Part shown: positions 4,256-40,510 of the stretch, piece after piece
How the letters are laid out: every line of letters begins with the position of its first letter
Position numbering within the stretch: position 1 is the stretch's first letter
From: a virus
Reading direction: 5' to 3' (one strand)
Virus record (IMG/VR): IMGVR_UViG_3300006803_000027
Location: 1-48,777 of that record
DNA length: 48,777 nt
Notes under the pieces: model-generated
Database searches by the model: none
What the model was told of the DNA's origin: nothing
What the model saw: the letters and a program-made list of their open reading frames with translations, nothing else
Position numbers and translations under genes: made by a program

Positions 4256-5452
4256 ATGATGAATCCATTCGAACTTATCCATCGCGATCTATCAATGCTT
4301 GGTTCCACAAAAGGAACCAATGCAAAAATTGAAGCTCTTCGTGAGATTGATGCACACACCGTGCAAGTCATCACCTGGTCATTTGATCCATTCCACAACT
4401 TCGGAGTCTCAAAACTTCGCCCAACCCTTCCAAATGTCGAATCTGCCATCACCGATGAACAAATCCTCACGGCCTTGGGAGAGTCCGACTTCAAATGGCT
4501 TCGCAATAACTGCGAAGATTTCTCCGACTTGCAGCTGAATGTGACCAACTCGATTCTTGGGCGATTTCAGTCATACCAACTCGGAATTGGTGGTAAATCG
4601 TTCCGTACCGTCTACAAAGACGCGTACAAGACCTTTAGCCTTCAATTGGCTGGGTCCTACACGAAATCCAAAACTGAATTCCCTTGTTACGCTCAGCCGA
4701 AATTCGATGGAGTTCGCTGTGTCGTTCTTGTAGATGCACATGGAGCCACTGAAACTCTTTCGAGAAACGGCAAGCCTCTCTACAATATCGATCCGGAAAT
4801 TCTCAATGAACTTTCTGCGTATCCCAACATGGTCTTCGATGGTGAAGCAATCACTGATGGTGGTGACTTCAACCTTTCAGTTGGTGTTATCCATCGCAGC
4901 ACTTCAGACGCAGTCCTTTCTAGCCTGAAACTCTTCGATGCAATCACAATGGAAGAATTCAAGTCTCGCAAAAGCACTCGCGAATACGAAGAACGATATG
5001 CAGCTCTGAAATCAATGATCTTAGTGACTCCACTCGCCGAACATGAGATTGTGAACTCTCTCGAAGAAGCTGAAGCTGCCAACAATCGGTATCGCAAAGC
5101 CGGTCATGAAGGTGCAATCCTCAAGAAGAAGAAGGGCAAGTACTCATTCAAGCGCACACTCGACTGGATGAAGGTCAAGCCTCTTGTTGAAGACTCTTTC
5201 GAAGTCACCGGATTTCGTGAAGGACGAGGTCGCCTCAAAGGCAAGCTTGGTGCGTTGATAGTTAAGACCCAGAAAGGCACCACAACGAAAATTGGCGGAG
5301 GCTTTTCCGATAGGCAACGCGAATATCTCTGGGAAATTCGTGATCAGTTGATCGGTGAAGAATGCGAAGCGGAATTCATGGAGTACACTCCAGCCGGTCG
5401 TCTTCGCCACCCAGAATTCTTGAAAATGCGGTTTGACAAAGGAGAAATGTGA
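4256..5452 (+). CDS. 30: ATP-dependent DNA ligase
   Basis: 398 residues (or 397 from the second ATG at 4259). Adenylation motif I is KFDG, with Lys149 as the predicted AMP-accepting lysine. Further ligase features are an FDGE segment, EGAILKKK and the WMKVKP motif before a C-terminal OB-fold region. It seals nicks in phage DNA and joins Okazaki fragments, as T4 gp30 does, and is somewhat shorter than T4 gp30. It stands directly behind an early promoter and heads an operon that continues into nucleotide-modification genes. Confidence 0.92.
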   Translation: MMNPFELIHRDLSMLGSTKGTNAKIEALREIDAHTVQVITWSFDPFHNFGVSKLRPTLPNVESAITDEQILTALGESDFKWLRNNCEDFSDLQLNVTNSILGRFQSYQLGIGGKSFRTVYKDAYKTFSLQLAGSYTKSKTEFPCYAQPKFDGVRCVVLVDAHGATETLSRNGKPLYNIDPEILNELSAYPNMVFDGEAITDGGDFNLSVGVIHRSTSDAVLSSLKLFDAITMEEFKSRKSTREYEERYAALKSMILVTPLAEHEIVNSLEEAEAANNRYRKAGHEGAILKKKKGKYSFKRTLDWMKVKPLVEDSFEVTGFREGRGRLKGKLGALIVKTQKGTTTKIGGGFSDRQREYLWEIRDQLIGEECEAEFMEYTPAGRLRHPEFLKMRFDKGEM

Positions 5453-5845
5453 ATGTCTACAACCAACCGACTCGAAGCCATCGGCGTATCGAAAGAGCGC
5501 TACTCGGTTATGTTCCTGCAGAAATGCATCGAACTTCAACGACTCAAGGGTCAGGATTACCAAAATCCAAACTCTCGCGTCAAGCAAGCTGACTATTATC
5601 CGTCAGGCATCAAGACGATCGAAGAGATCATCCATGCGAAGAAGCTTCGGCTTCAGTCACTGATCGAAACATGGGAATCGAACAATAACGCTCCAGTTTT
5701 CGAATCCGTCGAAGACACCCTGATGGATATGGTCAACTACGCAAGCTTCATGGCTGCGTTCATCAACAGAGAGATCGACGGCCAAGACCTACAGGCTGAT
5801 GTCTTCAATCGCAAATTGTCAGAAGAAGAGGAGAGCGTCCAATGA
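5453..5845 (+). CDS. DUF1599/Nmad1-like nucleotide-associated protein
   Basis: 130 residues, abutting the ligase stop, with GGAG eight bases upstream. The pattern includes KGQDYQNP, a central helical stretch with KKLRLQSL and a C-terminal DTLMDMVNYASFM helix. This is typical of the small all-helical DUF1599 family, also called nucleotide modification associated domain 1, related to MazG-like folds. Its stop overlaps the start of the gp42 homologue, which fits a role in handling modified cytosine nucleotides. The family call is by eye and the biochemical function is not established. Confidence 0.55.
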   Translation: MSTTNRLEAIGVSKERYSVMFLQKCIELQRLKGQDYQNPNSRVKQADYYPSGIKTIEEIIHAKKLRLQSLIETWESNNNAPVFESVEDTLMDMVNYASFMAAFINREIDGQDLQADVFNRKLSEEEESVQ

Positions 5846-6525
5846 ACGTACAAGATATCCGTAACCTATTCATCGAGAAGAAAGCTGCTGGTGACATCGT
5901 CAATCTCGGTGGAACGAACGTAATCGAAATCCTCGGAGCATCGTTTGAAGCTGATGAAGCAACCATATTCGGTGATCTTAACACGAAATACATCGATGCC
6001 GAAATCGATTGGTACGAATCGATGAGTCGTTCTGTTAACGATATCGGTAGATATTACGACATCGTTCCAAAAATCTGGCAAGACATCTCATCCAGTGACG
6101 GTCTCATCAACTCCAATTACGGATTGCTGATCTTTTCGCCGTTATACCATCATCAATACGCCAAAGTTTTAGAGGAACTTGCGAAAAATCCGAGTTCACG
6201 TCGAGCCGTCATGATCTACAACCGTCCATCTATTTGGGTCGAGTATGCTCACAACGGTATGTCTGACTTTATCTGCACCAATGCTGTTTCCTACCAGATT
6301 CGTGATGGTAAGCTTCATGCTGTAGTTCAAATGCGTTCGAACGATGCCTGGGCTGGATATCGAAATGATCGTGCATGGCAGATACATGTCATGAGCATGC
6401 TTGTCTGTGATTTGAATGCACACACACTTTTTGACTTCGATCTAGAGATCGGTACACTTCACTGGCAAGTGCAGAACATGCACTTCTATGAGCGCAACTT
6501 CAATCTCATTCCTGATCCCTCGTAA
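5842..6525 (+). CDS. 42: Deoxycytidylate 5-hydroxymethyltransferase (gp42)
   Basis: 227 residues. The sequence follows T4 gp42 closely by eye: IEILGASF near the start, NSNYG, NPSSRR, GMSDFICTN with catalytic Cys145, and MRSNDAWAGYRND. Asp176 occupies the position of the thymidylate-synthase Asn that selects dUMP; in T4 gp42 this is Asp179 and gives dCMP specificity, and the nucleophile is Cys148, so both sites shift by three. The enzyme converts dCMP and methylene-tetrahydrofolate to 5-hydroxymethyl-dCMP. It implies that the phage DNA carries hydroxymethylcytosine. A separate canonical thymidylate synthase lies at 28381. Confidence 0.95.
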   Translation: MNVQDIRNLFIEKKAAGDIVNLGGTNVIEILGASFEADEATIFGDLNTKYIDAEIDWYESMSRSVNDIGRYYDIVPKIWQDISSSDGLINSNYGLLIFSPLYHHQYAKVLEELAKNPSSRRAVMIYNRPSIWVEYAHNGMSDFICTNAVSYQIRDGKLHAVVQMRSNDAWAGYRNDRAWQIHVMSMLVCDLNAHTLFDFDLEIGTLHWQVQNMHFYERNFNLIPDPS

Positions 6526-6773
6526 TGGGTGCATCACCAAAAACCGTATCTGACTTCGAGCAGAAAATCTTACAGCACTTCTCGGATAATGAGTTCGACT
6601 CACTCTTTGATGCTGCTGTGGACTACTGCGAGCAACACGATGTAGATTACGAGGAAATTCACAAAACGGTGAAGTTCTCCCAAACATTCATCGAACGGGT
6701 TTCTGCTGAAGCCAGAAAGAACAACTTGCTCAAGCAATCGAAATCCACTCACATAGAACTGGACATATCATGA
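6525..6773 (+). CDS. 33: Late-transcription co-activator, gp33-like
   Basis: 82 residues, start overlapping the gp42 stop by one base. The acidic helical core (AAVDYCEQHDVDYEEI, then FIERVSAEARKNNLL) resembles T4 and cyanophage gp33, which binds the RNA polymerase flap and links polymerase to the sliding clamp at late promoters. In T4 a hydrophobic C-terminal tail binds gp45; here the end is ELDIS, a weaker version. T4 gp33 is 112 residues. The presence of gp55 and gp45 homologues supports the call, but the similarity is short. Confidence 0.6.
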   Translation: MGASPKTVSDFEQKILQHFSDNEFDSLFDAAVDYCEQHDVDYEEIHKTVKFSQTFIERVSAEARKNNLLKQSKSTHIELDIS

Positions 6774-7483
6774 GAACGACACCATACTACGCAGCCATAA
6801 TGACTCTTTTGACTTCGAAATCGTATTTGGATTTGATGGTCATCGGCGCAAATGATGCGAAATACAACGATCCGCTTTACGGCATTCTTCCTCAACTTCG
6901 AGACCGCTCAAGCTTGATTCTCGTCGAGCCAATCTCGTCACTTCATCCTATCATCCGCAATCACATGGCTGAAATCGACTATGAAGATTTCGAGATCATC
7001 CCTTCAATCGTTTCGTCGACAGATGGTGAAGATGTCGAAATCTTTTGCATCAAGGAGGAATATTGGTCGAAGGTTGCACGGACATACTCGAAACCTGATT
7101 GGCCTGAATATCGTGCACCACTCGGCGTCTCAACAATCCATTATGGGAAGTTGCGAAACTGGTTCCATCAAGCACGTCAGAACCCAGAAGACCAGGCCGA
7201 AGACGCAATCGAGAAGTTCAACTTCAAGACTCAGACCATTGAGTCTCTCGTGAACGCGTCTGGGACTCAACCCGATATCATCCAGATTGATATCGAAGGT
7301 GAAGACGCCGACGCAATCATTGCAACCGACTGGAACAAGATTCGTCCTTCTATCATCTACTTCGAAGGCAATCGAGTGACGAAGAGTGCACGTGCTGTCA
7401 AGGAGCATCTCGCGAAATACGGCTATCACACACTATGGACCACCAACAATGGTTTGGCGATCCGCGTGAACGACGATGGCTGA
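6770..7483 (+). CDS. FkbM-family SAM-dependent methyltransferase-like protein
   Basis: 237 residues, ATGA overlap with the previous gene. MVIGANDAKYNDP near residue 23 looks like the SAM-binding loop (usually VGANxG), and IIQIDIEGEDADAI near residue 170 is the family signature (IDVEGxE). FkbM enzymes usually O-methylate sugars or related hydroxyls. In this operon, behind gp42 and ahead of sugar-nucleotide genes, a DNA-linked sugar or its precursor is a possible substrate, but a surface glycan or a small molecule cannot be excluded. Confidence 0.7.
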   Translation: MRTTPYYAAIMTLLTSKSYLDLMVIGANDAKYNDPLYGILPQLRDRSSLILVEPISSLHPIIRNHMAEIDYEDFEIIPSIVSSTDGEDVEIFCIKEEYWSKVARTYSKPDWPEYRAPLGVSTIHYGKLRNWFHQARQNPEDQAEDAIEKFNFKTQTIESLVNASGTQPDIIQIDIEGEDADAIIATDWNKIRPSIIYFEGNRVTKSARAVKEHLAKYGYHTLWTTNNGLAIRVNDDG

Positions 7484-8081
7484 TAAGAATGATCTCTTTC
7501 GGTCTGCTCACGGATATCGAATGATCTTCGTGGCAGACCATGATCTTCCTCTCGACCAGGAACTCGTTCCTAGGTTCAAGTATCCGAAGATGTCGACTGC
7601 ACAGAGAGGATTTGCACAGCGTAACCTGAAGCAGATCGTAAGGAAGATGAACGACGAGTATTACTTTGCGTTCTTCTTCATCAACAACATCGCGAAGACT
7701 TCGAACATGCCTCACATTTACGACAGCGAGGTTTCAACGAGTGTCGTCGACAAATTGCATGACATCTACCAATCGTTCATACAATCAGATCATGAGGAAA
7801 ACTTTATGTTCCTTCGTGATTCTTTTCGAGCGATGCCAAATCTCGTCGAAAAGAACGGCAAAACCGGAATTGTGAATGGCGTTATCTCTGGTGAACTTTC
7901 GATTCTGTCTGCCATGAAGTATCACAGTGAGGTCGAAGAAGTCGATCTCAGCGAACTGCGGAAGGAGAAAGGGCTGCTTTCGAAGAGAGCTTACCGAATT
8001 CTTCGCCAATCCCTACGACTCGAAGATCAATACGCATTCTCTAAGAAGGTGCTCAACGTAATTAAAAAGGTCCAAAAATGA
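7476..8081 (+). CDS. Conserved-looking phage protein, unknown function
   Basis: 201 residues, overlapping its upstream neighbour by eight bases. A basic N-terminal half with aromatic residues (YYFAFFFINNIAKT) is followed by an acidic linker and a basic helical C-terminus. There is no signal peptide or membrane span and I recognise no motif. Co-transcribed with the FkbM-like methyltransferase and the next gene. Confidence 0.75.
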   Translation: MADKNDLFRSAHGYRMIFVADHDLPLDQELVPRFKYPKMSTAQRGFAQRNLKQIVRKMNDEYYFAFFFINNIAKTSNMPHIYDSEVSTSVVDKLHDIYQSFIQSDHEENFMFLRDSFRAMPNLVEKNGKTGIVNGVISGELSILSAMKYHSEVEEVDLSELRKEKGLLSKRAYRILRQSLRLEDQYAFSKKVLNVIKKVQK

Positions 8082-8452
8082 GACATTACAACAAAAACGT
8101 CACCATTGCTGATGACGGAACTGCACTCGACATCTCTGGAGTACCTCTCCATTCCTATTATCGCACGAATTCTCAGCTTGAAGGCTATTTGAACCGCAAT
8201 GTCGACTTTGTCTCATTCGAGATTGCAGATGTTCGGTTCTTTGCGAGATACCACCAGAATCGAATCATCTTCTGTTCACCCTTTGCACATCTTCATGGTC
8301 AAATCATCGATTGTTTCGATCGTTTTCTTAACGAAGAATGGATCAAGTCGATGATTTTGAAGGGAAACTTTGAAGCAACTGATGGAAGCTTTGAGTATCT
8401 CGAAGAGACGGAGGAACACTTGACCTCCTCTGCTCCAGGCACAAAGAAGTAG
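8078..8452 (+). CDS. Unknown protein, end of the 4256-8452 operon
   Basis: 124 residues, ATGA overlap with the previous gene. Mixed alpha/beta composition, two His in FAHLHGQ near residue 67, and an acidic C-terminal tail ending in Lys-Lys. No recognised family. It is the last gene before a 319-base noncoding stretch. Confidence 0.75.
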   Translation: MRHYNKNVTIADDGTALDISGVPLHSYYRTNSQLEGYLNRNVDFVSFEIADVRFFARYHQNRIIFCSPFAHLHGQIIDCFDRFLNEEWIKSMILKGNFEATDGSFEYLEETEEHLTSSAPGTKK

Positions 8453-8518
8453 TTGGAAAACGTGGAATGAAGAAGACCAAATCTTTCTTTGAAATGTCAA
8501 AAAGTTTGATAAAGGTTA

Positions 8519-8547
8519 TGTACTTATAGCCTCCACTATGATATAAT
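8519..8547 (+). promoter_or_regulatory. Early-type promoter P4
   Basis: TGTACT, 17 bp, TATAAT preceded by CTATGA. No gene follows before the hairpin at 8604-8634, so it probably makes a short RNA of about 80 bases. Confidence 0.8.
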
Positions 8548-8553
8548 TCTTCG

Positions 8554-8640
8554 AAAGTTTGTTCTGAAATATGTAAGACAAGATTGACAACCTTGATCTA
8601 ACCAGGGGAACTCAGTGAATCGCTGAGTTCCTCTTTGTCG
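8554..8640 (+). ncRNA. Candidate small RNA with terminal hairpin
   Basis: Begins about seven bases after the P4 -10 and ends with a 12-bp stem (8604-8615 with 8623-8634, one G-U pair, seven-base loop) followed by CTTTGTCG. There is no ORF inside. TCGCTGAG in the stem is complementary to CTCAGCGA downstream in the repeat module at 8678-8685, so alternative pairing is possible. Confidence 0.45.
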
Positions 8641-8641
8641 T

Positions 8642-8692
8642 TTGATGTATATTATATTGTCAATACGATCGTAAGACTCAGCGAGCTCCAGG
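8642..8692 (+). repeat. Intergenic repeat module, copy 1
   Basis: An AT-rich box TTGATG-N11-GTCAA (8642-8663) is followed 37 bases from its start by CAGCGAGCTCCAGG (8679-8692). The same two elements in the same order lie at 29712-29763, and the AT box recurs at 41953-41974. All three precede an early-type promoter. Function unknown. Confidence 0.8.
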
Positions 8693-8719
8693 TTTAACGA
8701 GGCAACAGTCACTTTACTA

Positions 8720-8748
8720 TGTACATCATGCACGAAATGTGATATCAT
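8720..8748 (+). promoter_or_regulatory. Early-type promoter P5
   Basis: TGTACA, 17 bp, TATCAT preceded by TGTGA; drives the phosphoesterase gene at 8772, whose ribosome site is AGGAG. Confidence 0.85.
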
Positions 8749-8771
8749 GAATTAAGAAATAGGAGATCAAT

Positions 8772-9398
8772 ATGACCAAAGTCCGAATTATTGGCGATGT
8801 CCACGCTAAGTTTCAGGAATACTTTGAAATTGCAGAAGTCGTTGAGAACTCTATTCAGGTTGGCGACTTTGGATTCGGTTTTTTCAGACCGCATGAAATG
8901 GTGGAAATCGTTCAATGGGTAAACAAGAATCCCAGTCATTTGTTTATTAGAGGCAATCATGACCACCCACAAATTGCTGAAGGAATGGGAAACTACATCT
9001 CAGACGGCTACTACGACAGGAAACGCTCAATCTTCTACTTCGGCGGTGCGAAAACGCCTGACAATCCTGGAAAGGTTCTTATACCAGGCATAAATTGGTG
9101 GCCTGATGAGGAAGTCACTGAAGACAAGTTTCTCAGCATACTTACCCGTTACGAAATTGCGAAGCCTCGAGTGGTCATCTCACACGACTTTCCACAATCG
9201 TATGTCGAAGATCAATTCGGTCATGAAATCACAAACACTCGCGAGATACTTCAGGAGCTTTTCGAAATTCATCAACCCGACTATTGGATTGGTGGTCATC
9301 ATCATATTTCTCGCCGTGAGAAGAGGCAAAATACACAGTTCATCACCCTGAAAGAACTTGAATACTTTGACCTGGATCTACCTGATGCTAAAGATTGA
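8772..9398 (+). CDS. Calcineurin-like metallophosphoesterase
   Basis: 208 residues with the full set of metal-binding motifs: GDVHAK (8-13), GDFGFG, RGNHDHP, SHDFP and GGHHH near residue 175. These proteins bind two divalent metals and cleave phosphomono- or diesters. Small phage members of this type include protein phosphatases and nucleotide diesterases; the substrate cannot be read from sequence. First gene behind promoter P5. Confidence 0.88.
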   Translation: MTKVRIIGDVHAKFQEYFEIAEVVENSIQVGDFGFGFFRPHEMVEIVQWVNKNPSHLFIRGNHDHPQIAEGMGNYISDGYYDRKRSIFYFGGAKTPDNPGKVLIPGINWWPDEEVTEDKFLSILTRYEIAKPRVVISHDFPQSYVEDQFGHEITNTREILQELFEIHQPDYWIGGHHHISRREKRQNTQFITLKELEYFDLDLPDAKD

Positions 9399-9624
9399 GA
9401 CCTATTCCGAACTCGTTGAAGTTTTCCGTGCGTGGAAATCTGCCGACAATAATGTGAGATTCGGACAATACATTTTCCGCAATCACTGTACCGATGTCGA
9501 AGACTTCGAGCATCCACTTCGTGAGAAACTCCTTTTCGAGATGAACGAACACGAAGTGTTTGCGAATGCCATCGAGACAATTAGATGGCAAAAACATGGC
9601 ATTGACTGTGTACAAGCTGGCTAA
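9388..9624 (+). CDS. Small unknown protein
   Basis: 78 residues from the ATG at 9388, which overlaps the phosphoesterase by 11 bases; the longer frame begins at 9358 deep in that gene and is less likely. The ribosome site is weak. The sequence is mixed, with HCTDVEDFEHP near residue 40. The C-terminus runs into promoter P6. No family recognised. Confidence 0.6.
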   Translation, partial: LKIETYSELVEVFRAWKSADNNVRFGQYIFRNHCTDVEDFEHPLREKLLFEMNEHEVFANAIETIRWQKHGIDCVQAG

Positions 9625-9637
9625 ATTGTGATACACT
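9609..9637 (+). promoter_or_regulatory. Early-type promoter P6
   Basis: TGTACA, 17 bp, TACACT preceded by TTGTGA; overlaps the end of the previous gene and drives the glycosyltransferase/mutase operon. Confidence 0.85.
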
Positions 9638-9670
9638 GAACTTAAGAACAAAACCTCTATGGAGATACCT

Positions 9671-10786
9671 ATGACTGCAAAACCGAAAATCCTCGTCACC
9701 GGAATGAACAAAGCTCAATGCAACCGAAATGCACACTCGGCTTTTCTTCGCTTGCAGATCGTTCCTTCGCACTACTCACTCGTGAATGGTCTCGAAGCAA
9801 TGGGATACGAAGTCGAACAACGAGTCGTCAAACTGGGCGAAGACCTTTCCGAGTATGAGGACGTGATTGCGATCGTCCACCCAACAGCAGCCTTCACACA
9901 GTATCTGTGGTCAGGTCTGTATGCTATCGGCGCTCGCCCAGATTGCATTGTTGCTTTCGATGATTGGCAATTCCCTGGTATCTTCAAAGACATCATCGGC
10001 TACAAGAAGCAGCTCGAAGAAGGAAATGGCTATCGCGACTATCTGTGGTCGAACTGGGGTGGCAAGGAGTCACTCGAGGAAGTGCAGAAGTACGAATCGT
10101 TCTACAAGGATGCTTGCGACAGCATTGTCAATGGCAAGAATCGCCTTCTGATGAGCGCATTTGCTGGTGGCGATCTGAGTCTCTTGAGTCTCGAATGGCC
10201 AAGTGAGCGTGTCTTCACATACAACCCAAATCCGTACCACCTAAATCGTCGACCTGACAACAATTTCGGTCTCGAAAACGACACTGATCTTGACATGTTC
10301 GATGAGCCTGACACCATTGGCATTCGTCCTGAGAAAAAGCTTCGTGAATGGAACTTCGCATCTCTCGTTCATAACAAGACACGTAAGTGGATGAAGAGCA
10401 AGAAGGTCGAATGGAAGGTGAACTTCTTCGGTGCATCACGTGGCGAATACAAATGCGAACGAGTCACTGAGACCGAAATGTGTCGCATCTTTAACAAACA
10501 ATGGGGTTGCCTGATGCCTGCGTACAGCCATGCTGGCTCTGGTTGGTGGCGTGCCCGTCCGCTTCAAGTTGCTGATGCAGGATCGATTCTGCTTTGTGAT
10601 CAGAAAGAAGCTGAAGTCTACGGTGAAGCGTACGAAAACCTCACTGCCGACAAAATCGAGGGTCTCGATACAGCTGGTCTAGTTGCTCTTGCGAAAGCAC
10701 AGAAAGACTGCCTCTATGAGAAACACCCACTTACGAAACGAGTTCAACGTGAAGAACTCCAGAAAATTTTGGATGCACGCAAATGA
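9671..10786 (+). CDS. Glycosyltransferase, GT-B fold, resembling T4 beta-glucosyltransferase
   Basis: 371 residues. The ATG at 9671 is chosen because GGAG lies six bases upstream; the ATG at 9659 precedes that site. The layout follows T4 BGT by eye: an N-terminal Rossmann half starting KILVTGMN with a VPSHYSLVNGL segment, a central IVAFDDWQFP, then a C-terminal half with NFFGASRGEYK, and WWRARPLQVADAGSILLCD in the sugar-nucleotide site region. T4 BGT adds glucose to hydroxymethylcytosine in DNA. With gp42 encoded upstream and the mutase overlapping downstream, DNA glycosylation is the most economical role, but sequence similarity is weak and a surface-glycan role remains possible. Confidence 0.7.
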   Translation: MTAKPKILVTGMNKAQCNRNAHSAFLRLQIVPSHYSLVNGLEAMGYEVEQRVVKLGEDLSEYEDVIAIVHPTAAFTQYLWSGLYAIGARPDCIVAFDDWQFPGIFKDIIGYKKQLEEGNGYRDYLWSNWGGKESLEEVQKYESFYKDACDSIVNGKNRLLMSAFAGGDLSLLSLEWPSERVFTYNPNPYHLNRRPDNNFGLENDTDLDMFDEPDTIGIRPEKKLREWNFASLVHNKTRKWMKSKKVEWKVNFFGASRGEYKCERVTETEMCRIFNKQWGCLMPAYSHAGSGWWRARPLQVADAGSILLCDQKEAEVYGEAYENLTADKIEGLDTAGLVALAKAQKDCLYEKHPLTKRVQREELQKILDARK

Positions 10787-11820
10787 GCAAAAAATGCAAA
10801 TTCATTGTCGTCGGAGCAGGACTTTCAGGATCAACAGTTGCTCGTCTTCTCGCTGAAAAGGGACACAAAATCGTCGTCATGGAGAAGAGTGACCATGTTG
10901 CCGGCAACGCTTTTGATTATGTGATCGATGACGGACATCGAATCCACAAATATGGTCCTCACCTGTTCCACACGAACAACGTCAAAGTCTTCGAGTTTCT
11001 GAGCCGATTCACGGAATGGGTGAAATATGAGCACAAGGTCAAAGCTCTTCTTGAAGATGGACGTCTTGTCACGCTTCCTGTGAACAAGGAAACGAAAGAA
11101 ATCGTCGGCGAAGAAAACGTTATCGACATCTTCTTCCGTCCTTACACCGAGAAGATGTGGGGAATGTCACTTGAAAGGGTGAGTCCGAGCATCATGAATC
11201 GTGTTCCCATTCGTGACGATATGAATGAGCTGTACTTCCCAAACGACGACATTCAGGTGCTTCCTAAGGATGGATACACCAAAATGGTTGAAAACATGCT
11301 CGATCATGAGAACATCAATGTTATGACAGGTTGCGACTTTATGGAGTTTGGTAAAACTGGATACGGTGGTGATTTCATCGCAAGTGCGGACTGGATTTTC
11401 AATTCGATGCCTATCGATGAGTATTTCAACTACATCCATGGACACCTTCCGTATCGTTCTCTCAAGTTCCATCATGCAACACTCCCACTCGAGAATGTTC
11501 TCCAGGCTGCAACAGTGAACTTCACTAACACTGGCCCATACACACGGATCACAGAGTGGTCGAAGCTTCCGAATAGCTATGGATCGTCCGAAACATCTGC
11601 CGTAATGTGGGAAGAGCCATGTGCTGCTGAAGAAAATGGTGATCGCAAATTCTATCCTGTCAAAGATGTGGACGGAGAGAATCGTAAGCTCTACGAAAAA
11701 TACAAGAAGATGGCGCGGCCATACTCGATAACCTTCATTGGTCGCCTTGGTCTTTATGCCTATTTAGATATGGATCAAGCTGTCAATTCAGCAATGCGAG
11801 CAGCAGAGGACTTCAAATGA
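10783..11820 (+). CDS. glf: UDP-galactopyranose mutase
   Basis: 345 residues, ATGA overlap with the glycosyltransferase. The FAD-binding GAGLSG motif is at residues 12-17, followed by the family segments HKYGPHLFHTNN, TRITEWSK, YPVKD and a C-terminal FIGRLGLYAYLDMDQA. The enzyme uses reduced FAD to interconvert UDP-galactopyranose and UDP-galactofuranose. Bacterial enzymes are about 370-390 residues, so this is slightly compact but complete. With galE and galU also in the window, the phage can in principle make UDP-galactofuranose itself. The translational overlap with a glycosyltransferase suggests that enzyme uses the product. Confidence 0.95.
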   Translation: MSKKCKFIVVGAGLSGSTVARLLAEKGHKIVVMEKSDHVAGNAFDYVIDDGHRIHKYGPHLFHTNNVKVFEFLSRFTEWVKYEHKVKALLEDGRLVTLPVNKETKEIVGEENVIDIFFRPYTEKMWGMSLERVSPSIMNRVPIRDDMNELYFPNDDIQVLPKDGYTKMVENMLDHENINVMTGCDFMEFGKTGYGGDFIASADWIFNSMPIDEYFNYIHGHLPYRSLKFHHATLPLENVLQAATVNFTNTGPYTRITEWSKLPNSYGSSETSAVMWEEPCAAEENGDRKFYPVKDVDGENRKLYEKYKKMARPYSITFIGRLGLYAYLDMDQAVNSAMRAAEDFK

Positions 11821-12308
11821 GACCGTACGAAGACGAAATCAACAAGTTACCAAACGATCTGATGAAGGTGGATTACGCTCTCAATCTTCTAGAGTATCAT
11901 CTCAAAATGAGCGAACATACCAAAATGGCGCTGATAAATATCGGAATCGATCCGAACTTTGGTATGGGCATTCCGAAAAATAGTAGAATTTCAATGAAGG
12001 TCATTCGCAAACGCCGACTCTTTTCACATCTTTGGTTGTGCGCACCTGATGGTCGTTGCAAAGATGTGATGTGGTCGAACATGTTCTACGACACCCTTTT
12101 CGAGTCCGGTTCTGATCTGAGCACCGTCAGTATGATGATCTCTGATATCAACAAGCACCTCAAGGAGAAAGGTCAAGAAGATTGGATGATTCAACACAAT
12201 CGGAACTTCGAAGAGAATGTCTCGTACTTCATGTGTCCACCAAAACCGTATCCTCATCGTATTCCTCATCCAAAAACTGTTGTACAAGATGAGCAGGATG
12301 TGATATAG
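11817..12308 (+). CDS. Unknown protein behind the mutase
   Basis: 163 residues, ATGA overlap with glf. Mostly helical, with a basic stretch (KVIRKRRLFSHLWL) near residue 62 and a proline-rich C-terminus (CPPKPYPHRIPHP). No membrane span or recognised motif. Its place in the sugar operon suggests, without proof, a part in the same pathway. Promoter P7 overlaps its last codons. Confidence 0.75.
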   Translation: MRPYEDEINKLPNDLMKVDYALNLLEYHLKMSEHTKMALINIGIDPNFGMGIPKNSRISMKVIRKRRLFSHLWLCAPDGRCKDVMWSNMFYDTLFESGSDLSTVSMMISDINKHLKEKGQEDWMIQHNRNFEENVSYFMCPPKPYPHRIPHPKTVVQDEQDVI

Positions 12309-12309
12309 C
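12281..12309 (+). promoter_or_regulatory. Early-type promoter P7, inside the end of the previous gene
   Basis: TGTACA, 17 bp, TATAGC preceded by TGTGA. The expected start of transcription (about 12316) falls on the ATG of the nuclease gene, and no ribosome site is visible there, so the transcript could be leaderless. Confidence 0.7.
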
Positions 12310-12315
12310 TAGACC

Positions 12316-13200
12316 ATGAGTATTTTCAAGAAATTCAGAGAGTCGGCTGAGCAACAACCAAGACTGGTCCCATTCACTCACGACTGGGATCAGTTCAAAT
12401 TTCGCAAAGACGTGCATAACATCGACGCGTACAAGGAAGGCAAATTCCCTGGGCGCTACTACATCATTCCACCAACTGACGACAATCCTGAGAAACGCGC
12501 ATATCCATCTGCAACGACGATACTCGGTCAGATTGCTGATCTTCAGGGTGAGAATGGTTGGCTTCAGGCTTGGAGAGATGCTGTTGGTGAAGAAGAAGCC
12601 GATCGCGTCAGTCATGAGGCCCGAACTCGTGGTACGTCGATGCACGATATGGCCGAACTCTACATTCGAAATGAGGTCGTCAAAGACACTCACATGCGAG
12701 GATGGAGTCTATTCAGGAAGCTTCGTCCATACCTCGACAAAATCGACAACGTTCACTGTTTGGAGCATGCTCTCTATTCGGATGTTCTTCAGATTGCTGG
12801 TAGAGTTGACTGTATTGGGGAATACGACGAGGACTACACACTCGAAGGCGTTTTGAACAAGGATGGAGGAGCATACGATGTCGAGTTCAATGGTCTCATC
12901 ACACTGATCGACTTCAAATCGTCTCGCAAAGAGAAGTCTGCGAAAGACATTGGTGGATACAAACGTCAAATATCGCTTTACGCGATGGCGTTTGAGGAGA
13001 TGACAGACATTCGCATCGATTTCGGAATGATCTTGATGGGAATTGATACGATGACCGAAACGAAGCAGCCTGGAGCGAAGCCATTCGAAGTCTTCCTCGG
13101 CGACTATAAGAAGACCACAATCGACGAGATCGCAAAGGTCCATGAACACTTCGGTAACGAGTCGTTCTCGATCGAAAAAGCCTATGACAAATTTCTCTGA
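12316..13200 (+). CDS. PD-(D/E)XK nuclease, RecB/MGME1-like exonuclease
   Basis: 294 residues with RecB-family nuclease motifs in order: RGTSMHDMAE near residue 98, AGRVDCIGEYD near residue 163, LIDFKSS (the D-x-K catalytic motif) near residue 200 and YKRQISLYA (Q-x3-Y motif) near residue 218. Such single-domain exonucleases, related to mitochondrial MGME1, are common in T4-like cyanophages and process single-stranded ends in recombination or degrade host DNA. No ribosome site is visible before the start; translation may be coupled or leaderless from P7. Confidence 0.85.
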   Translation: MSIFKKFRESAEQQPRLVPFTHDWDQFKFRKDVHNIDAYKEGKFPGRYYIIPPTDDNPEKRAYPSATTILGQIADLQGENGWLQAWRDAVGEEEADRVSHEARTRGTSMHDMAELYIRNEVVKDTHMRGWSLFRKLRPYLDKIDNVHCLEHALYSDVLQIAGRVDCIGEYDEDYTLEGVLNKDGGAYDVEFNGLITLIDFKSSRKEKSAKDIGGYKRQISLYAMAFEEMTDIRIDFGMILMGIDTMTETKQPGAKPFEVFLGDYKKTTIDEIAKVHEHFGNESFSIEKAYDKFL

Positions 13201-13211
13201 AAGGAAATAGG

Positions 13212-13472
13212 ATGAGCCCTGAAGAAATGCAAACGATCGTCGCAAGGCTGCGCGATACTAGCCTTGGAATCGATGAACTGAACGAAAATCTTTCGAGCAC
13301 TCTCGGAACGATAGTTCAAGCTCTGGATGGTAATGAGCCACCTGTCATCACAGAGCTTGTGAAATCGTTCGTTCAGTTTCAGAACAAACTCACAGCGAAT
13401 TCATTTTTGCTGACAACACAAATTTCAAATATCGGCGACAAGGTCTATGAACCAGAGGAGATCAAAGAATGA
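13212..13472 (+). CDS. Small helical protein, unknown
   Basis: 86 residues after a GAAAGGAAATAGG ribosome site. Mostly amphipathic helices with heptad-like Leu/Ile spacing, acidic C-terminus, no membrane span. ATGA-type overlap with the MazG-like gene. No family recognised. Confidence 0.75.
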   Translation: MSPEEMQTIVARLRDTSLGIDELNENLSSTLGTIVQALDGNEPPVITELVKSFVQFQNKLTANSFLLTTQISNIGDKVYEPEEIKE

Positions 13473-13897
13473 TGAACATTTTCGACATAGTGGAAGAATT
13501 CCATGAAAAGATGGGTCACGTTAACCGCTACGACGAGATCGCAAGTGACCCTGAGAAGCTTAAAGCTTTCATTGAACTTCGTGTTCGTATGATGGAAGAA
13601 GAGCTTACTGAACTGAAGAATGCAATCGCAGATAAAGATGCAGCCGAGATTGTTGATGCACTCATCGATGGTCTATATTTCAACGTCGGAACTCTCAACA
13701 TTCTGATCGGCACTGATATGTCACTTGGGGCTTTCATCGAGGTTCACGATGCCAATATGGAAAAGGAGATTGGTGTCAAACCTGGTCGTCCAAATCCTCT
13801 CGGCCTTCCTGATGCCATCAAGCCTGAAGGTTGGAAAGCACCCGATCTTTCGTCGTACGTTATTGACTCCAAAATGCTGAAAGGCATTTGTGCATGA
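13469..13897 (+). CDS. MazG/PRA-PH-like nucleoside triphosphate pyrophosphohydrolase
   Basis: 142 residues (alternative ATG three bases on). The all-helical NTP-PPase signature is present: MMEEELTEL followed by EIVDALIDGLYF, giving the ExxE and ExxD metal-binding motifs near residues 43 and 61. Such enzymes cleave NTPs or dNTPs to the monophosphate and pyrophosphate. T4 gp56, which destroys dCTP so that only hydroxymethyl-dCTP is used, has this fold, and a comparable role is plausible here given gp42. Phage housekeeping of other nucleotides, such as phosphoribosyl-ATP or ppGpp, is the alternative. Confidence 0.78.
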   Translation: MMNIFDIVEEFHEKMGHVNRYDEIASDPEKLKAFIELRVRMMEEELTELKNAIADKDAAEIVDALIDGLYFNVGTLNILIGTDMSLGAFIEVHDANMEKEIGVKPGRPNPLGLPDAIKPEGWKAPDLSSYVIDSKMLKGICA

Positions 13898-15051
13898 AAA
13901 TCCTTATCGTCTCGACTCACATCACTGGTGGTGCGTTCAAGGATCACCGAAAGCCTCGCAACGGCATCGAAGCTCGTCAGCATTCGTGGATCAAAATCCT
14001 TAAGAAGAAGGGAATTGACGTTCACGTTCTGTGCACTGGCAAGATTGATCCAGTCTTCCTGGAATATGCGACATTCCACTCTGTTAGTGAGTTGAGTCGA
14101 GACGAAGTGTTGGAACTTCATGGACCAAAGGAAGCAGTCGCCATGTCTCGAAGGGTCGGAAAGGCCTACATTGATCAGGCGAAGATCATCAATCCTGATT
14201 TCTGTTGGTCGAATGCTTCAACGACTACAGTTCCAGCTGCCATTTCGAAGTTCATTCCAACGACCCATATGATCCCAGATTGGATACCAAGTCCGATGTT
14301 CCTGCAGGGCATCGTCAGGAATTGCATGACCATCACAGAGAATGGTGGCCGAGTCTATGCTTCACCATGGATTCGCGCAAAGCATTTCGAGTTCTCTGAT
14401 ACGATGGACAATCCTCCGCCACACACTTATATTTCTGACGATGCTGACGTCTACACGACAATGGATCCGAAGATTTGGGAAATGGATGTCGTGCCGAATG
14501 AAGGCAAAACGTTGATGGTCGGTCGATGCCACCCACAGAAGAATTTCGGAAAGATTGCAAAGGCTGGAATCGAATTTGACGCATACGTCTCCGGTGCAGA
14601 CTTCCCGAACATCATCAAGACTCTCGACAAATCTGAGAACACCGTTCTTCATCACAATGAAACGAGAGATCAGCTTCTGCTCGAGTATCAGAAATGCTCG
14701 ACATGTTTGGTCGCTCGACCCGATGAGTCGCTTGGTTTGATTGCAATCGAGACACTGCTATTTGGTGGAATACCGATCACGTTCGTTGACAAGGCAGGTC
14801 AAACTCATGCTGCCGATCACTACATCAACCAGGTGACGGACCTTGGTGTCAAACCTGTCGCATATGATGATCCTGAGTGGGTACTTGACCTGAAGATCAA
14901 GCTCGTATATGTCAACTCACTATCGTTTGATGACAGAAAGTCTATCGCTGAGTCTGCACGCAAGCACTTCTCTGAAGACTCATGGTACGATGAGTTCTGG
15001 AAAGTCCTCTCGAAATCAAAGGTTCCTGCCGCCCCTCTCGATCTTTTCTGA
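13894..15051 (+). CDS. Glycosyltransferase, GT4-like
   Basis: 385 residues from the ATG at 13894 (ATGA overlap). The N-terminus KILIVSTHITGG is a glycosyltransferase B-type first strand. The C-terminal half has LMVGRCHPQKNFGKI and the family motif ESLGLIAIETLLFGGIPI, where the first Glu usually contacts the donor. It transfers a sugar from a nucleotide-activated donor; acceptor and donor are unknown. It is not similar to the glycosyltransferase at 9671, so the phage has two distinct enzymes, which could build a disaccharide. The gene ends its operon before promoter P8. Confidence 0.85.
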   Translation: MKILIVSTHITGGAFKDHRKPRNGIEARQHSWIKILKKKGIDVHVLCTGKIDPVFLEYATFHSVSELSRDEVLELHGPKEAVAMSRRVGKAYIDQAKIINPDFCWSNASTTTVPAAISKFIPTTHMIPDWIPSPMFLQGIVRNCMTITENGGRVYASPWIRAKHFEFSDTMDNPPPHTYISDDADVYTTMDPKIWEMDVVPNEGKTLMVGRCHPQKNFGKIAKAGIEFDAYVSGADFPNIIKTLDKSENTVLHHNETRDQLLLEYQKCSTCLVARPDESLGLIAIETLLFGGIPITFVDKAGQTHAADHYINQVTDLGVKPVAYDDPEWVLDLKIKLVYVNSLSFDDRKSIAESARKHFSEDSWYDEFWKVLSKSKVPAAPLDLF

Positions 15052-15080
15052 ATTTTTGTCAAAATTTTTGTATTTAGTTG

Positions 15081-15109
15081 TGTACATCAGGACTACCGTA
15101 TGATATTCT
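15081..15109 (+). promoter_or_regulatory. Early-type promoter P8
   Basis: TGTACA, 17 bp, TATTCT preceded by GTATGA; drives the small-gene operon from 15149. Confidence 0.85.
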
Positions 15110-15148
15110 ATAAATACAAGCAATTTGATAAAACAAGGAAAACGAACA

Positions 15149-15484
15149 ATGGATGTCAAAACTGCAAATGACCTCACAGCTCGGATGATCAAAGTTCTTT
15201 CGAAAGAATTTCCCGAACTAGAGTTCAAATTCAAAGGTGGAAAAGTTCATTCGAATTCTTTGATTGCGAAATTCAGCATTATCGAAGCTGGCAAAGACTC
15301 TCCTGAAATGGAAAATGCCCGCAGTTATGCACCAACAATCGGCATCAAGTTGGAAACCGAAGACTTCAAGATCATCGGGAAAACACTTCGTCGCAATAAG
15401 TTTAGCTGGCTGTACATGGAAAAGTCAACCGGCAATCGTTTCAAAGCAACCCAAGAACGCATCAAGGAGCTCTTCGGATCATGA
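15149..15484 (+). CDS. Unknown phage protein
   Basis: 111 residues from the ATG at 15149 after an AAGGAA site; the in-frame TTG at 15125 lies in the leader. Basic, alpha/beta, with FKFKGGKV near residue 26 and a C-terminal helix KATQERIKELFG. This composition is common in small phage proteins of unknown role. First gene of the operon. Confidence 0.75.
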   Translation: MDVKTANDLTARMIKVLSKEFPELEFKFKGGKVHSNSLIAKFSIIEAGKDSPEMENARSYAPTIGIKLETEDFKIIGKTLRRNKFSWLYMEKSTGNRFKATQERIKELFGS

Positions 15485-26059: not shown

Positions 26060-26656
26060 ATGGCGAAACTGATTATCGGCTTTGTTGGCCACAAAGACTC
26101 TGGCAAAAGCTCGACCGCACGACTTCTCACCGACGAAATACACCGATCTTTTCCAAATTGTGTGGACAAAGCTTCCTTCTCACAGCCGATCTATGACATG
26201 CTAATCGCACTCGGAGTTCCTCGTGGAAACGTCTATGACAATCGTATGCGTGATCACACTCTCCACGATTTTGGTGGAAAGACTTCTCGTCAACTGATGA
26301 CAACTCTCGGCACAGAGTGGGGTCGCGACATGATCCATAACGATCTTTGGATAGACCGAAGCATTTCGTCAATGGAGACTCGCGATGCAAAGGTCTTTAT
26401 GGTCGATGGAATACGTTTCCACAACGAAGCCGACAAAATCCTTGATGCTGGTGGCTGTCTCGTTCACGTTGCGAATGAGAAGACAACACCTGAAGGCGAA
26501 GTCCATGAATCTGAGAAGCACATCGAGGCTCTTTCGATGAAGTGTGACTTCGGTGTCGATAACACGAATTGGCAAATCAGAGAGGAAGTTCCGACACTGT
26601 GCGATCTGATCCTTGAAAGATACGCCAAATTCTTTGCAAAGATGTTGACAAAGTAG
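26060..26656 (+). CDS. 1: Deoxynucleoside monophosphate kinase, gp1-like
   Basis: 198 residues. Walker A GHKDSGKSST is at residues 10-19. TLGTEWGRDMIHNDLWI and VDGIRFHNEAD are characteristic of the T4 gp1-like kinase family. T4 gp1 phosphorylates dTMP, dGMP and hydroxymethyl-dCMP, which bacterial kinases do not accept, so it is required downstream of gp42. Length is somewhat below T4 gp1 (241). Promoter P12 begins right after its stop. Confidence 0.88.
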   Translation: MAKLIIGFVGHKDSGKSSTARLLTDEIHRSFPNCVDKASFSQPIYDMLIALGVPRGNVYDNRMRDHTLHDFGGKTSRQLMTTLGTEWGRDMIHNDLWIDRSISSMETRDAKVFMVDGIRFHNEADKILDAGGCLVHVANEKTTPEGEVHESEKHIEALSMKCDFGVDNTNWQIREEVPTLCDLILERYAKFFAKMLTK

Positions 26657-28380: not shown

Positions 28381-29166
28381 ATGTCAGAAACATCATACCT
28401 ACGACTTCTTCGCCAAATCATGGAGGAAGGAGACACAAACATGGACCGCACAGGGGTCGGAACGAAATCAGTCTTCGGTGCACAGATGAAGTTCGATCTG
28501 TCGAAAGGTTTTCCTCTTTTGACAACAAAGAGGGTTCATTTGCCGGCGATCATTCACGAGTTGCTCTGGTTCCTTCAGGGTGACACCAACATCCGATATC
28601 TGCAGGAAAACCACGTGCGCATCTGGAATGAATGGGCAGATGAGAATGGCGATCTCGGTCCCGTATATGGAAAGCAATGGCGCGACTTCGGTGGCGTCGA
28701 TCAGATCAGTGAACTGGTTGAACAATTGAAGACGAATCCTGCCAGCCGCCGAATGGTCGTTTCCGCTTGGAACCCACCTGAAACGTCTAAGATGGGTCTG
28801 CCTCCTTGCCACATGTTCTTCCAGTGCCGAGTCAACAACGGAAAGCTCGACCTGTTGATGTACCAGCGCAGTGCTGACATGTTCCTCGGCGTTCCATTCA
28901 ACATCGCTTCATATGCTCTTCTGCAGCAGATGCTTGCTCAAATCTGTGGCCTTGGCGTTGGCACATTCACCCATTCCATTGGCGATGCTCACATCTACTT
29001 GAACCATTTCGATCAAGTCGCAGAACAACTGTCACGCATACCGAGAAAATTGCCCATGATGGTTATCAATTCGAAACCTGATTCCATCTTCGACTTCAAG
29101 TACGAAAACTTCGTGCTGTTTGGATACGAACCACATCCAACAATCAAAGCTCCGGTGGCGGTCTGA
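28381..29166 (+). CDS. thyA: Thymidylate synthase
   Basis: 261 residues, close to the 264 of E. coli ThyA. Canonical motifs throughout: [36 protein letters not shown] with catalytic Cys143, [21 protein letters not shown] with the dUMP-selecting Asn, and HIYLNH. It converts dUMP and methylene-tetrahydrofolate to dTMP and dihydrofolate (td in T4). No intron is visible, unlike T4 td. Its stop overlaps the DHFR start, which would recycle the dihydrofolate. Confidence 0.97.
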
Positions 29167-32635: not shown

Positions 32636-32958
32636 AATTTGAAGATGCACGAGCAGAGGCCGCAACTCTTCTTGAAATTAGTGAGGACGCAAAGTATGCA
32701 ACGTCAGGTGCCATATGGGACTACCCTTCCGCACTGAAAAGAGCTGCTGAAACAATTGAGGCTCTTTGTATTCGAGCTGAGCAATCTGAAGCTCGAGAAC
32801 GACAATTGCTTGACAGCAAAAAATACGAACGTGCTGTCACTGTTGAGAATGCTTCTCTGACCTTCGAACTTCAGCAGTTGAATATGCAAGCCATAGGTCG
32901 AATTCTTCGCAATCCAACAAAGGTAGAAATTTTTGACGGAATGAAGGAGACAGGTTGA
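32632..32958 (+). CDS. Unknown helical protein between uvsY and galE
   Basis: 108 residues, ATGA overlap. Helical throughout with a coiled-coil-like middle (IRAEQSEARERQLLDSKKYE). No membrane span and no family recognised. Coupled to galE by overlap. Confidence 0.72.
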   Translation: MKFEDARAEAATLLEISEDAKYATSGAIWDYPSALKRAAETIEALCIRAEQSEARERQLLDSKKYERAVTVENASLTFELQQLNMQAIGRILRNPTKVEIFDGMKETG

Positions 32959-33929
32959 TGAAAGTCATGGTTTTTGGAGGAGCTGGATACATTGGCTCAC
33001 ATGCATGCAAAGCATTAGAAGAGCAAGGTCATGAAGTCATCGTATATGACAACCTCGCAACTGGTCACATCGATGCTATCAACTGTCGAATATATCCATA
33101 CAATATTCTTGACATTGAGAGGCTTGACCATACAATAGGCTCTCAAGAACCTGATGCAGTCATGTTCTTTGCTGCTATGAGTATCGTACCTGAAAGTTTT
33201 GAGATGGTGCATGAATACTGGACAAACAATCTGGTAGGATTCATGAATGTGGTCAATGCTTCGATTATTCATGGTGTCCGAAACATCGTATTCTCTTCTA
33301 CTGCTGCTGTTTACTCACCTTCGAAAAAACGTCTTCGTGAGATGGACGCGACTAAGCCCTTGACGCCTTATGGTGCTTCAAAGCTTGCGTGTGAGATGTA
33401 TCTGGCGAATATGACATACCAGCATGATGACCTCAACGCGACTGTTTTCCGGTACTTCAATGTCGCAGGTTCTGATCCTGATGGCAAAATTGGTGAATCG
33501 CACTTTCCTGAGACCCACCTCATTCCAAATCTCATCAGATCACTTCAAACTGGTGAACGTTTCAATCTTTTCGGTAACGACCATCCGACAGCTGATGGAA
33601 CAGCTGTACGTGATTACATTCATGTATGCGATCTTGTGGATGCGCATATCACCGCGATGGTCAAAAACGACACCTCTGATCCAGTGCCCGGTATCTTTAA
33701 TCTTGGAAGCCAACATGGAACTTCCGTAAGACAGTTGATGAATATTGTGGAATCTGTCATGGGTAAACGTTTCGAATCTGTCAACTCGAAACATGCTCGT
33801 CGGGGTGATCCACCCCATCTCGTATGTGATTGCACTCGTGCTGTTTCCCTCTTAGATTTCAAGCGAAAGTACAAAATCAAGGACATGGTAGAGCATGCTA
33901 TGCTTTGGCAAAACAATCGCAAGTACTGA
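32958..33929 (+). CDS. galE: UDP-glucose 4-epimerase
   Basis: 323 residues from the ATG at 32958, eight bases after GGAG. Rossmann motif GGAGYIGSH at residues 7-15, VFSSTAAVY with the catalytic Ser/Thr region, PYGASKLACE with the Tyr-x3-Lys pair, and DGTAVRDYIHVCDLVDAH. This short-chain dehydrogenase family enzyme interconverts UDP-glucose and UDP-galactose through NAD. It links GalU (39611) to the mutase (10783) in a route to UDP-galactofuranose. Epimerases acting on related sugars share these motifs. Confidence 0.92.
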   Translation: MKVMVFGGAGYIGSHACKALEEQGHEVIVYDNLATGHIDAINCRIYPYNILDIERLDHTIGSQEPDAVMFFAAMSIVPESFEMVHEYWTNNLVGFMNVVNASIIHGVRNIVFSSTAAVYSPSKKRLREMDATKPLTPYGASKLACEMYLANMTYQHDDLNATVFRYFNVAGSDPDGKIGESHFPETHLIPNLIRSLQTGERFNLFGNDHPTADGTAVRDYIHVCDLVDAHITAMVKNDTSDPVPGIFNLGSQHGTSVRQLMNIVESVMGKRFESVNSKHARRGDPPHLVCDCTRAVSLLDFKRKYKIKDMVEHAMLWQNNRKY

Positions 33930-39610: not shown

Positions 39611-40510
39611 ATGAAGGTAACTAAAGCCGTATTCCCCGTAGCGGGACTAGGAACTCGATTTTTGCCAGCAACAAAATCCATTCCAAAAGAGATACTCAAT
39701 CTCATCGATCAACCTCTCATTCAGTATGCGATTGATGAAGCGAGAGAAGCAGGAATCAGTGAGTTCATCTTTGTAACTTCTCGTGGAAAGAGCTCTCTTG
39801 AAGACTATTTCGATCGATCACCAGAATTGAATGAGGCTTTGAGCAGCAAGGGTAAAGACGACATACTCAAAATGCTGAAAGGTATTGAGATGGAAAGCGG
39901 ATCTATCGCTTATGTTCGTCAATCTGATCCGATCGGTCTTGGGAATGCAATCTATTGTGCTCGACATCTCATCAAGAACGAACCTTTTGCAGTAATACTT
40001 CCTGACGACATCATTCAGAATGATGGGATTGGTGATAATGGTTGTATGAAACAGATGGTTGATGCTTACGATGGTGGAACGATGATCGCATGCATGAGAA
40101 TGAACGATCCTGAAGAACTCTCGAAGTATGGTGTCATGGACACTCACAATGGCAATACTGTAGGAATGGTTGAAAAGCCTGCGCCTGGTAATGCACCTTC
40201 AAATCTTGCAGCTGTTGGTCGATATATTCTCGATCCTCAGATTCTTAGCCATCTGGGTCATATCAAACCTGGATCAGGTGGAGAGTATCAACTGACGGAC
40301 GCCATCAATCTTCAATGCAAGATTTCCTCTCCCGATCCGAAAGTTGTAGTTAGACCATTCGTATTTGATGGAACAAGGTTTGATTGCGGATCCAAAATCG
40401 GATTTCTGAAGGCAACTGTTTCGCTTGCATTGCAACGAATCGATCTAGGTGATGAATTTAGGGATTTTCTGATTGAAATCACAAATTCCGAAAAGGAGAA
40501 AACACTATGA
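39611..40510 (+). CDS. galU: UTP-glucose-1-phosphate uridylyltransferase
   Basis: 299 residues. Nucleotidyltransferase motif AVFPVAGLGTRFLPATKSIPKEIL at residues 6-29, QSDPIGLGNAIYCA near residue 104, FAVILPDDI with metal-binding Asp, VEKPAPGNAPSNLAAVGRYIL and GEYQLTDAI. These match bacterial GalU (about 300 residues). The enzyme makes UDP-glucose from UTP and glucose-1-phosphate, the donor in T4-type DNA glucosylation and the precursor of UDP-galactose. Most T4-like phages rely on host UDP-glucose, so a phage copy suggests high demand. Confidence 0.95.
   Translation: MKVTKAVFPVAGLGTRFLPATKSIPKEILNLIDQPLIQYAIDEAREAGISEFIFVTSRGKSSLEDYFDRSPELNEALSSKGKDDILKMLKGIEMESGSIAYVRQSDPIGLGNAIYCARHLIKNEPFAVILPDDIIQNDGIGDNGCMKQMVDAYDGGTMIACMRMNDPEELSKYGVMDTHNGNTVGMVEKPAPGNAPSNLAAVGRYILDPQILSHLGHIKPGSGGEYQLTDAINLQCKISSPDPKVVVRPFVFDGTRFDCGSKIGFLKATVSLALQRIDLGDEFRDFLIEITNSEKEKTL

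Follow-up and report, generated by a model that had tools for sequence, protein, structure and literature searches.

The window analysed here is the whole of IMGVR_UViG_3300006803_000027, 48,777 bases from a T4-like virus of which it represents a fragment. It encodes a dCMP hydroxymethylase of the T4 gp42 type, a glycosyltransferase here termed GT1, a UDP-galactopyranose mutase (UGM) and a second glycosyltransferase, GT2, together with genes for a uridylyltransferase (GalU) and an epimerase (GalE) (Table 1). A sequence-only reading of the window had proposed that these genes place galactofuranose on 5-hydroxymethylcytosine (hmC) in the viral DNA; the genes which it named all exist as open reading frames (ORFs), their starts coinciding with the positions it gave or lying no more than a few codons away. 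A longer IMG/VR contig, G001 (126,862 bases), is ~99.9% identical to the window across the window's entire length, and its two ends (G001:C1:1-3460 and 123403-126862) repeat the same 3.46 kb with 97.5% identity, so that G001 may represent an almost complete genome. The capsid protein of the window is nearest to those of phiM9 and of Rhizobium phages of the RHph group (52-53% identity), and an alphaproteobacterial host is therefore likely. Positions 5000-16000 matched nothing among phages by megablast.

Table 1. Genes of the window considered in the proposed DNA modification, with the evidence for each assignment
Feature	Position	Strand	Evidence
dCMP hydroxymethylase, gp42 type (predicted product hm-dCMP)	5842..6525	+	T4 gp42 likeness, Asp
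FkbM-type methyltransferase, candidate sugar methylase, membership uncertain	6770..7483	+	PF05050, 28.7 bits vs cut-off 22.7
GT1, BGT-like glycosyltransferase, proposed DNA galactofuranosyltransferase	9659..10786	+	predicted fold; recurs beside UGM and gp42
UGM, UDP-galactopyranose mutase (predicted product UDP-galactofuranose)	10783..11820	+	PF03275, alignment to solved mutases, active-site residues
MazG-like pyrophosphohydrolase, candidate dCTP remover	13469..13897	+	PF01503, E=1.5e-9, above cut-off
GT2, GT4-type glycosyltransferase, candidate second or alternative DNA glycosyltransferase	13888..15051	+	phrog_30124, phage relatives, GT-B model
Deoxynucleoside monophosphate kinase, gp1 type	26060..26656	+	PF21448, 34.9 bits vs cut-off 27.1
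Thymidylate synthase, ordinary and separate	28381..29166	+	Asn where gp42 has Asp
GalE, UDP-glucose 4-epimerase (predicted product UDP-galactose)	32955..33929	+	TIGR01179, 309.5 vs cut-off 262.3, passes
GalU-like UTP-glucose-1-phosphate uridylyltransferase	39611..40510	+	TIGR01099 best match; PF00483 passes

Base, sugar donor and transferase genes

The hydroxymethylase shares 49% identity over 224 residues with T4 gp42 (PF00303, E=1.3e-11; phrog_160, E=7e-40) and carries an Asp at the column of T4 gp42 D179, as the sequence-only reading had claimed of a dCMP-selecting residue. The window's own thymidylate synthase (TS) has Asn at this column and, being a separate gene, shows that gp42 is not the source of TMP for the virus. 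Identity to RB69 ORF048, a type described as a 5-hydroxy-dCMP synthase in the available part of one report (PMC13390438), is only 24%; hydroxycytosine of the RB69 type was ruled out for the window on this comparison, and from its family the enzyme would be expected to yield hmC. The gp1-type kinase and MazG-like protein were likewise borne out by family models, and together with gp42 they form a plausible route to hm-dCTP.

The mutase gene follows GT1 with an overlap of exactly four bases, as previously described, and a third ORF of unassigned function overlaps UGM by four further bases. UGM scores 186.8 bits against its Pfam model (cut-off 26.3) and aligns to solved mutases with a best E=7.8e-71; it narrowly misses the NCBIfam equivalog cut-off of TIGR00031 (289.8 vs 303.75 bits), a near miss for a phage protein. 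Aligned to 3hdq, it retains two active-site arginines, which we take from the UGM literature to be catalytic, and the FAD glycine. Among 73 sequences of UGM from phages, some of them redundant, the arginines are retained in 71 and 73; a tryptophan, the GPHxFHT histidine and the FAD glycine are each present in all 73. GalE passes its NCBIfam cut-off, and GalU falls below that of TIGR01099 (285.1 vs 326.8); the route to UDP-galactofuranose read from the sequence thus stands at the level of Pfam for UGM and GalU and of NCBIfam for GalE.

GT1 begins at 9659, the 9671 of the sequence-only reading being an inner start. It belongs to phrog_14998, a family of unknown function, and matches no Pfam family at E<=0.1; among Pfam families, PF09198, PF11440 and PF20691 represent the known DNA glycosyltransferases BGT, AGT and TAGT (PMC13216743, in the part available), and membership of these sequence families was rejected for GT1. 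A sequence search of the PDB likewise returned no real relative. With 43 viral sequences as input, the structure model reached high confidence (mean pLDDT 89.2, pTM 0.88), and the three PDB chains ranked highest by Foldseek are all T4 beta-glucosyltransferase (BGT), the first with E=4.3e-7. In a VIA comparison with T4 BGT the model gave Z 18.5 over 302 residues at an rmsd of 3.5 A, in agreement with the earlier description of GT1 as BGT-like. D101 and D102, part of a DDW motif, are invariant across the 43 sequences; placed after a strand, the motif recalls by its position D100 of BGT, which is catalytic (the title of 1nzd names a D100A mutant). We take GT1 to be a separate family with a predicted BGT-like fold.

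Recurrence of GT1 with the mutase and the hydroxymethylase

Relatives of GT1 were sought with a five-member alignment query, and the best 80 loci of 298 relatives were reduced at 90% identity to 42 groups, one of which is the window virus. Downstream sequence extends for 1 kb or more in 40 groups; in 34 of these UGM directly follows GT1, and in 35 it lies somewhere in the locus. In turn, gp42 lies upstream in 23 of the 29 groups with at least 5 kb upstream, its median distance over all GT1 groups with gp42 being 1.1 kb. A GalE-like gene is present in 24/42 groups. Seven such genes from other GT1 loci were compared with NCBIfam; GalE was the best model for each, at scores below the cut-off.

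As a control, the best 80 loci were chosen by gp42 alone from a longer listing and were not dereplicated. These contain a MazG relative in 54 cases, GT1 in nine and UGM in five. All five UGM genes occur among the nine loci with GT1, against none of the 71 without it (Fisher p=5e-6, loci not dereplicated), indicating that UGM is tied to GT1 and not to gp42 loci at large. Over 26 groups the distances of GT1 and UGM are correlated (r=0.59; partial r=0.51 with gp42 distance removed), a value reached in 0 of 2000 permutations. T4-like agt or bgt was found in 20 of the 71 gp42 loci without GT1 and in none of the nine with it (p=0.10); compared with the 42 GT1 groups, where none was labelled, the difference is larger (p=5e-5), for samples picked differently and a zero read from locus labels. 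Recurring both across GT1 groups and in gp42-centred control loci, the association of GT1, UGM and gp42 is more than coincidence.

These counts bear on the possibility that GT1 or GT2 places plain glucose on hmC, the mutase having a different function or supplying the other of the two transferases alone. T4 BGT, the nearest fold to GT1, takes UDP-Glc, UGM is missing from four large GT1 records (below), and phages with GT2-type enzymes carry UGM without GT1. However, UGM adjoins GT1 in most groups, no GT2 relative besides that of the window virus is labelled in the best 80 of the 298 GT1 loci, and UGM is absent from all 71 gp42 loci without GT1 even though 20 of these have the T4-like glucosyltransferase genes. 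Glucose is accordingly an improbable sugar for the system.

A small cytidylyltransferase-like gene stands after UGM or before gp42 in several GT1 loci: one was tested (L042:12310-12774, PF01467), and others were recognised by eye (L051:12024-12437, L046:10666-11091, L168:7065-7475).

Eleven large records carry GT1: Aeromonas phage 25, Erwinia phage FBB1, C48C1, Providencia phage PSTRCR_121, DSL-LC01, Gordonia phages Sixama and GMA2, MW202657, G001, G002 and G008. Ten of them have a TS-family gene with Asp. The eleventh, phage C48C1, has no gp42 match; a Tet/JBP oxygenase (PF12851, 62.6 bits vs cut-off 34.9), GT1 and UGM lie there in a row. Tet_JBP was rejected as a general partner of GT1, since a search of 13 records found it in only one. 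Seven of the eleven large records carry UGM, the copy in G008 being near GT1 and not adjacent to it, and was not found in PSTRCR_121, Sixama, GMA2 or MW202657. Aeromonas phage 25 combines gp42, GT1 and UGM with annotated Alc, EndoII and a DenB-like enzyme, functions which target unmodified cytosine DNA.

The GT1 actinophages contain an Asp-type TS gene and a C5-cytosine DNA methylase. Three of them have an ORF of ~328 residues next to their GT1 cluster (L094:12151-13140, L095:12261-13241, L096:12556-13542); it had been suspected of encoding an oxygenase and was discarded, no Pfam family having matched.

In some metagenomic loci that lack UGM, a dehydrogenase, an epimerase-like gene or another glycosyltransferase adjoins GT1. 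The GT1 family therefore appears to consist of transferases whose donor can be exchanged. A C5-cytosine DNA methylase also occurs shortly downstream of GT1 in such loci, in two cases by test (L075:9022-10251 and L168:12055-13242, PF00145) and in three by eye (L088:10516-11754, L035:3051-4259, L161:14865-16049).

One alternative is that GT1 glycosylates hmC with a sugar other than plain galactofuranose, either because the mutase acts on another UDP-pyranose, for example converting UDP-arabinopyranose to the arabinofuranose form, or because galactose is altered first. Bacterial UGM is able to use UDP-arabinose. The GT1 relative of Providencia phage PSTRCR_121 sits within an RB69-like sugar cluster, C48C1 carries epimerase-family and dehydrogenase-family genes, G001 has a nucleotide-sugar dehydrogenase, and arabinose is present on RB69-like phage DNA according to the part of PMC13390438 available. 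Against this, the epimerase of the window passes the cut-off for UDP-glucose 4-epimerases, the epimerase-like genes tested by GT1 and UGM match GalE best, though below cut-off, and no route to UDP-xylose or UDP-arabinose was recognised in the window. Another sugar is thus unlikely here, if less so than glucose.

The mutase and transferases could instead remodel a host surface glycan, for instance to block superinfection. The usual role of UGM is in cell-surface glycans, and the gene also occurs in streptococcal prophages and a Lactobacillus phage; in the available parts of two reports, phage UGM is interpreted as a cell-wall gene (PMC6630229, PMC10611076). Yet the UGM-GT1 pair is tightly linked to gp42-type or Tet genes, and the nearest fold to GT1 is a DNA glycosyltransferase. 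Furthermore, among the matches listed for 84,980 species genomes of bacteria and archaea, GT1 amounts to four loci in three assemblies, all on phage-like contigs: one is a gp42-GT1-UGM locus, one lies beside an Asp-type TS gene, and the other two, on one 186-kb contig, read GT1-UGM-MazG amid ORFs resembling by eye T4-like gp46/47, clamp and clamp-loader. No match was found in 72,556 plasmid records. A role on the host surface is therefore very unlikely, and these data suggest that such phage UGMs have a purpose other than their published cell-wall role.

The second glycosyltransferase and neighbouring genes

The sequence-only reading also noted a second glycosyltransferase in the region, and GT2 matches phrog_30124 ('glycosyltransferase', E=2.3e-44), with Pfam matches below cut-off only; its start is at 13888, 13894 being an inner start. 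It has relatives in 21 phage records, and every one of these phages is from Rhizobium, Sinorhizobium or Agrobacterium. The GT2 model is of moderate quality (pLDDT 72.9) and has a GT-B fold. The solved structure that it matches best, 9iqz (Z 24.6), is a homolog of RB69 ORF003c, a putative arabinosyltransferase in the accessible part of PMC6024577; many other GT4 enzymes tie with it, so that the structure singles out no DNA enzyme, and a profile search against PDB sequences found nothing at E<=0.1. The window thus has two candidate DNA transferases, GT2 being likely to act either as the transferase for a second sugar, the addition of which is possible, or as an alternative to GT1.

Three of the phages with a GT2 relative, P10VF, phiM9 and Atu_ph04, also have UGM and an Asp-type TS-family gene; GT1 was not found in these or in OLIVR5. 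For Atu_ph04, the part of PMC6630229 available records an annotated deoxycytidylate hydroxymethyltransferase and the failure of nine restriction enzymes on the DNA; there too the authors interpret UGM as a cell-wall gene.

Among the neighbouring genes, an FkbM-type methyltransferase is present as first read, by its Pfam match. The methylation role then suggested for it derived from neighbourhood, and no match to the protein turned up among 50,697 phage records; when viral contigs were scanned with this protein alone, an approach that detects close relatives only, just G001, the same virus, was returned. As a conserved part of the system it is unsupported. Between it and gp42, and overlapping both, lies a late-transcription coactivator (6525-6773, PF16805). 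A NADAR-domain protein is encoded at 18487-18924 (PF08719, E=5.8e-25; PADLOC PDC-M42C, E=2.6e-11). The ORF at 3228-3932 encodes a dCMP deaminase domain (PF00383) together with a domain of the acyl-carrier type (PF00550, 35.9 bits); this fusion looks unusual, none of 910 phage records with a match covering 80% of the ORF. Outside the window, G001 encodes a full-length nucleotide-sugar dehydrogenase (L114:14810-16117, equivalent to G001:C1:114810-116117), above the cut-off of TIGR03026; its best model is TviB, below the TviB cut-off.

Proposed modification and its implications

In the proposed scheme, gp42, the gp1-type kinase and removal of dCTP by the MazG-like enzyme would lead to replacement of cytosine by hmC. 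GalU and GalE would supply UDP-galactose, the ring of which would be contracted by UGM to give UDP-galactofuranose. From this donor GT1 would attach galactofuranose to hmC in DNA through the hydroxymethyl group of the base, in the way that T4 BGT attaches glucose. GT2 would probably add a further residue or serve as an alternative transferase that the virus shares with Rhizobiales T4-like phages, and the modification would shield the phage DNA against host nucleases.

Several observations weigh against this scheme. Other GT-B enzymes follow T4 BGT in comparison with the GT1 model (in VIA, glycogen synthase Z 16.6, T4 AGT 16.4, and others), so that the fold alone is no proof of a DNA substrate; the profile of GT1 matches that of T4 BGT weakly (probability 29.8%) and, because profile comparisons with T4 BGT and AGT are weak or empty, the link to BGT comes from the predicted fold. 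GalE and GalU lie 17-30 kb from GT1, and the dehydrogenase of G001 has no role in the scheme. Besides the four large GT1 records in which UGM was not found, 4 of the 9 GT1-bearing gp42-centred loci are without it. Six GT1 groups have no gp42 in reach; the record of one (L042) carries an Asp-type TS gene elsewhere, and in the other five (L046, L048, L051, L059 and L080, fragments of 16-35 kb) no TS-family gene was found. Finally, the TS gene of P10VF, phiM9, Atu_ph04 and OLIVR5 resembles the RB69 type more than T4 gp42, and the base in these phages may be hydroxycytosine. This makes the Rhizobiales phages weaker as direct evidence for hmC, although UGM is still linked in them to an enzyme that modifies cytosine; the evidence from GT1 is independent of them, and the proposal stands as before.

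Taking these points together with the alternatives, we consider galactofuranosyl-hmC, made by way of gp42, GalU, GalE, UGM and GT1 with GT2 extending it or acting as an alternative, to be the probable modification of this viral DNA. Glycosylation of hmC by GT1 is very likely; that its sugar is galactofuranose is likely, judging from the UGM and GalE families and the retained active-site residues of UGM. The core of the sequence-only reading, hmC bearing a sugar from the overlapping mutase, is well supported by comparative genomics and by the predicted BGT-like fold of GT1, while its naming of galactofuranose continues to follow from gene families.

The scheme resembles the glucosyl-hmC system of T4 (gp42, gp1, BGT and AGT) in its T4-type gp42, its gp1-type kinase and the predicted fold of GT1. 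It differs in that GT1 falls outside the Pfam families of T4 BGT and AGT and the window virus encodes its own GalU, GalE and UGM. With the arabinosyl-hydroxycytosine system of RB69 and Mosigvirus it shares phage sugar-nucleotide genes beside a TS-family cytosine enzyme and the best, though tied, solved match of GT2; the hydroxymethylase, however, is of the T4 type, and hexose and mutase genes replace the pentose set. The Pootjesviridae (P10VF, phiM9, Atu_ph04 and OLIVR5) are alike in UGM and the Asp-type TS-family gene, and the first three in GT2, but lack GT1 and have the RB69-like TS type. The Tet_JBP-GT1-UGM row of C48C1 recalls Tet/JBP-linked cytosine glycosylation in phages, whereas the window is on the gp42 route, the Tet query from C48C1 having labelled nothing in it.

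No report of galactofuranose on DNA was found in the literature searched, a search missing most subscription papers, and it is probable that the viruses with this gene set cover their DNA with a sugar previously unknown there. We lean, by a little, towards a broader view in which galactofuranosyl-hmC, with the GT2 sugar in the present virus, is widespread in T4-like, jumbo and actinobacterial phages. The GT1 donor would vary with the neighbouring sugar-nucleotide genes—UGM mostly, dehydrogenase and epimerase or RB69-like pentose genes elsewhere—and phage UGMs called cell-wall genes would be DNA-modification genes. The cultivated Sinorhizobium phage phiM9, Aeromonas phage 25 and Gordonia phages are available for direct testing. 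If the proposal is correct, DNA bearing a hexose in furanose form would represent base modification of a new kind, with GT1 a new transferase family for the tagging of hmC; phage UGM and GalE, hitherto read as surface-glycan genes, would gain a different purpose, possibly one that includes evasion of defences recognising glucosylated cytosine.

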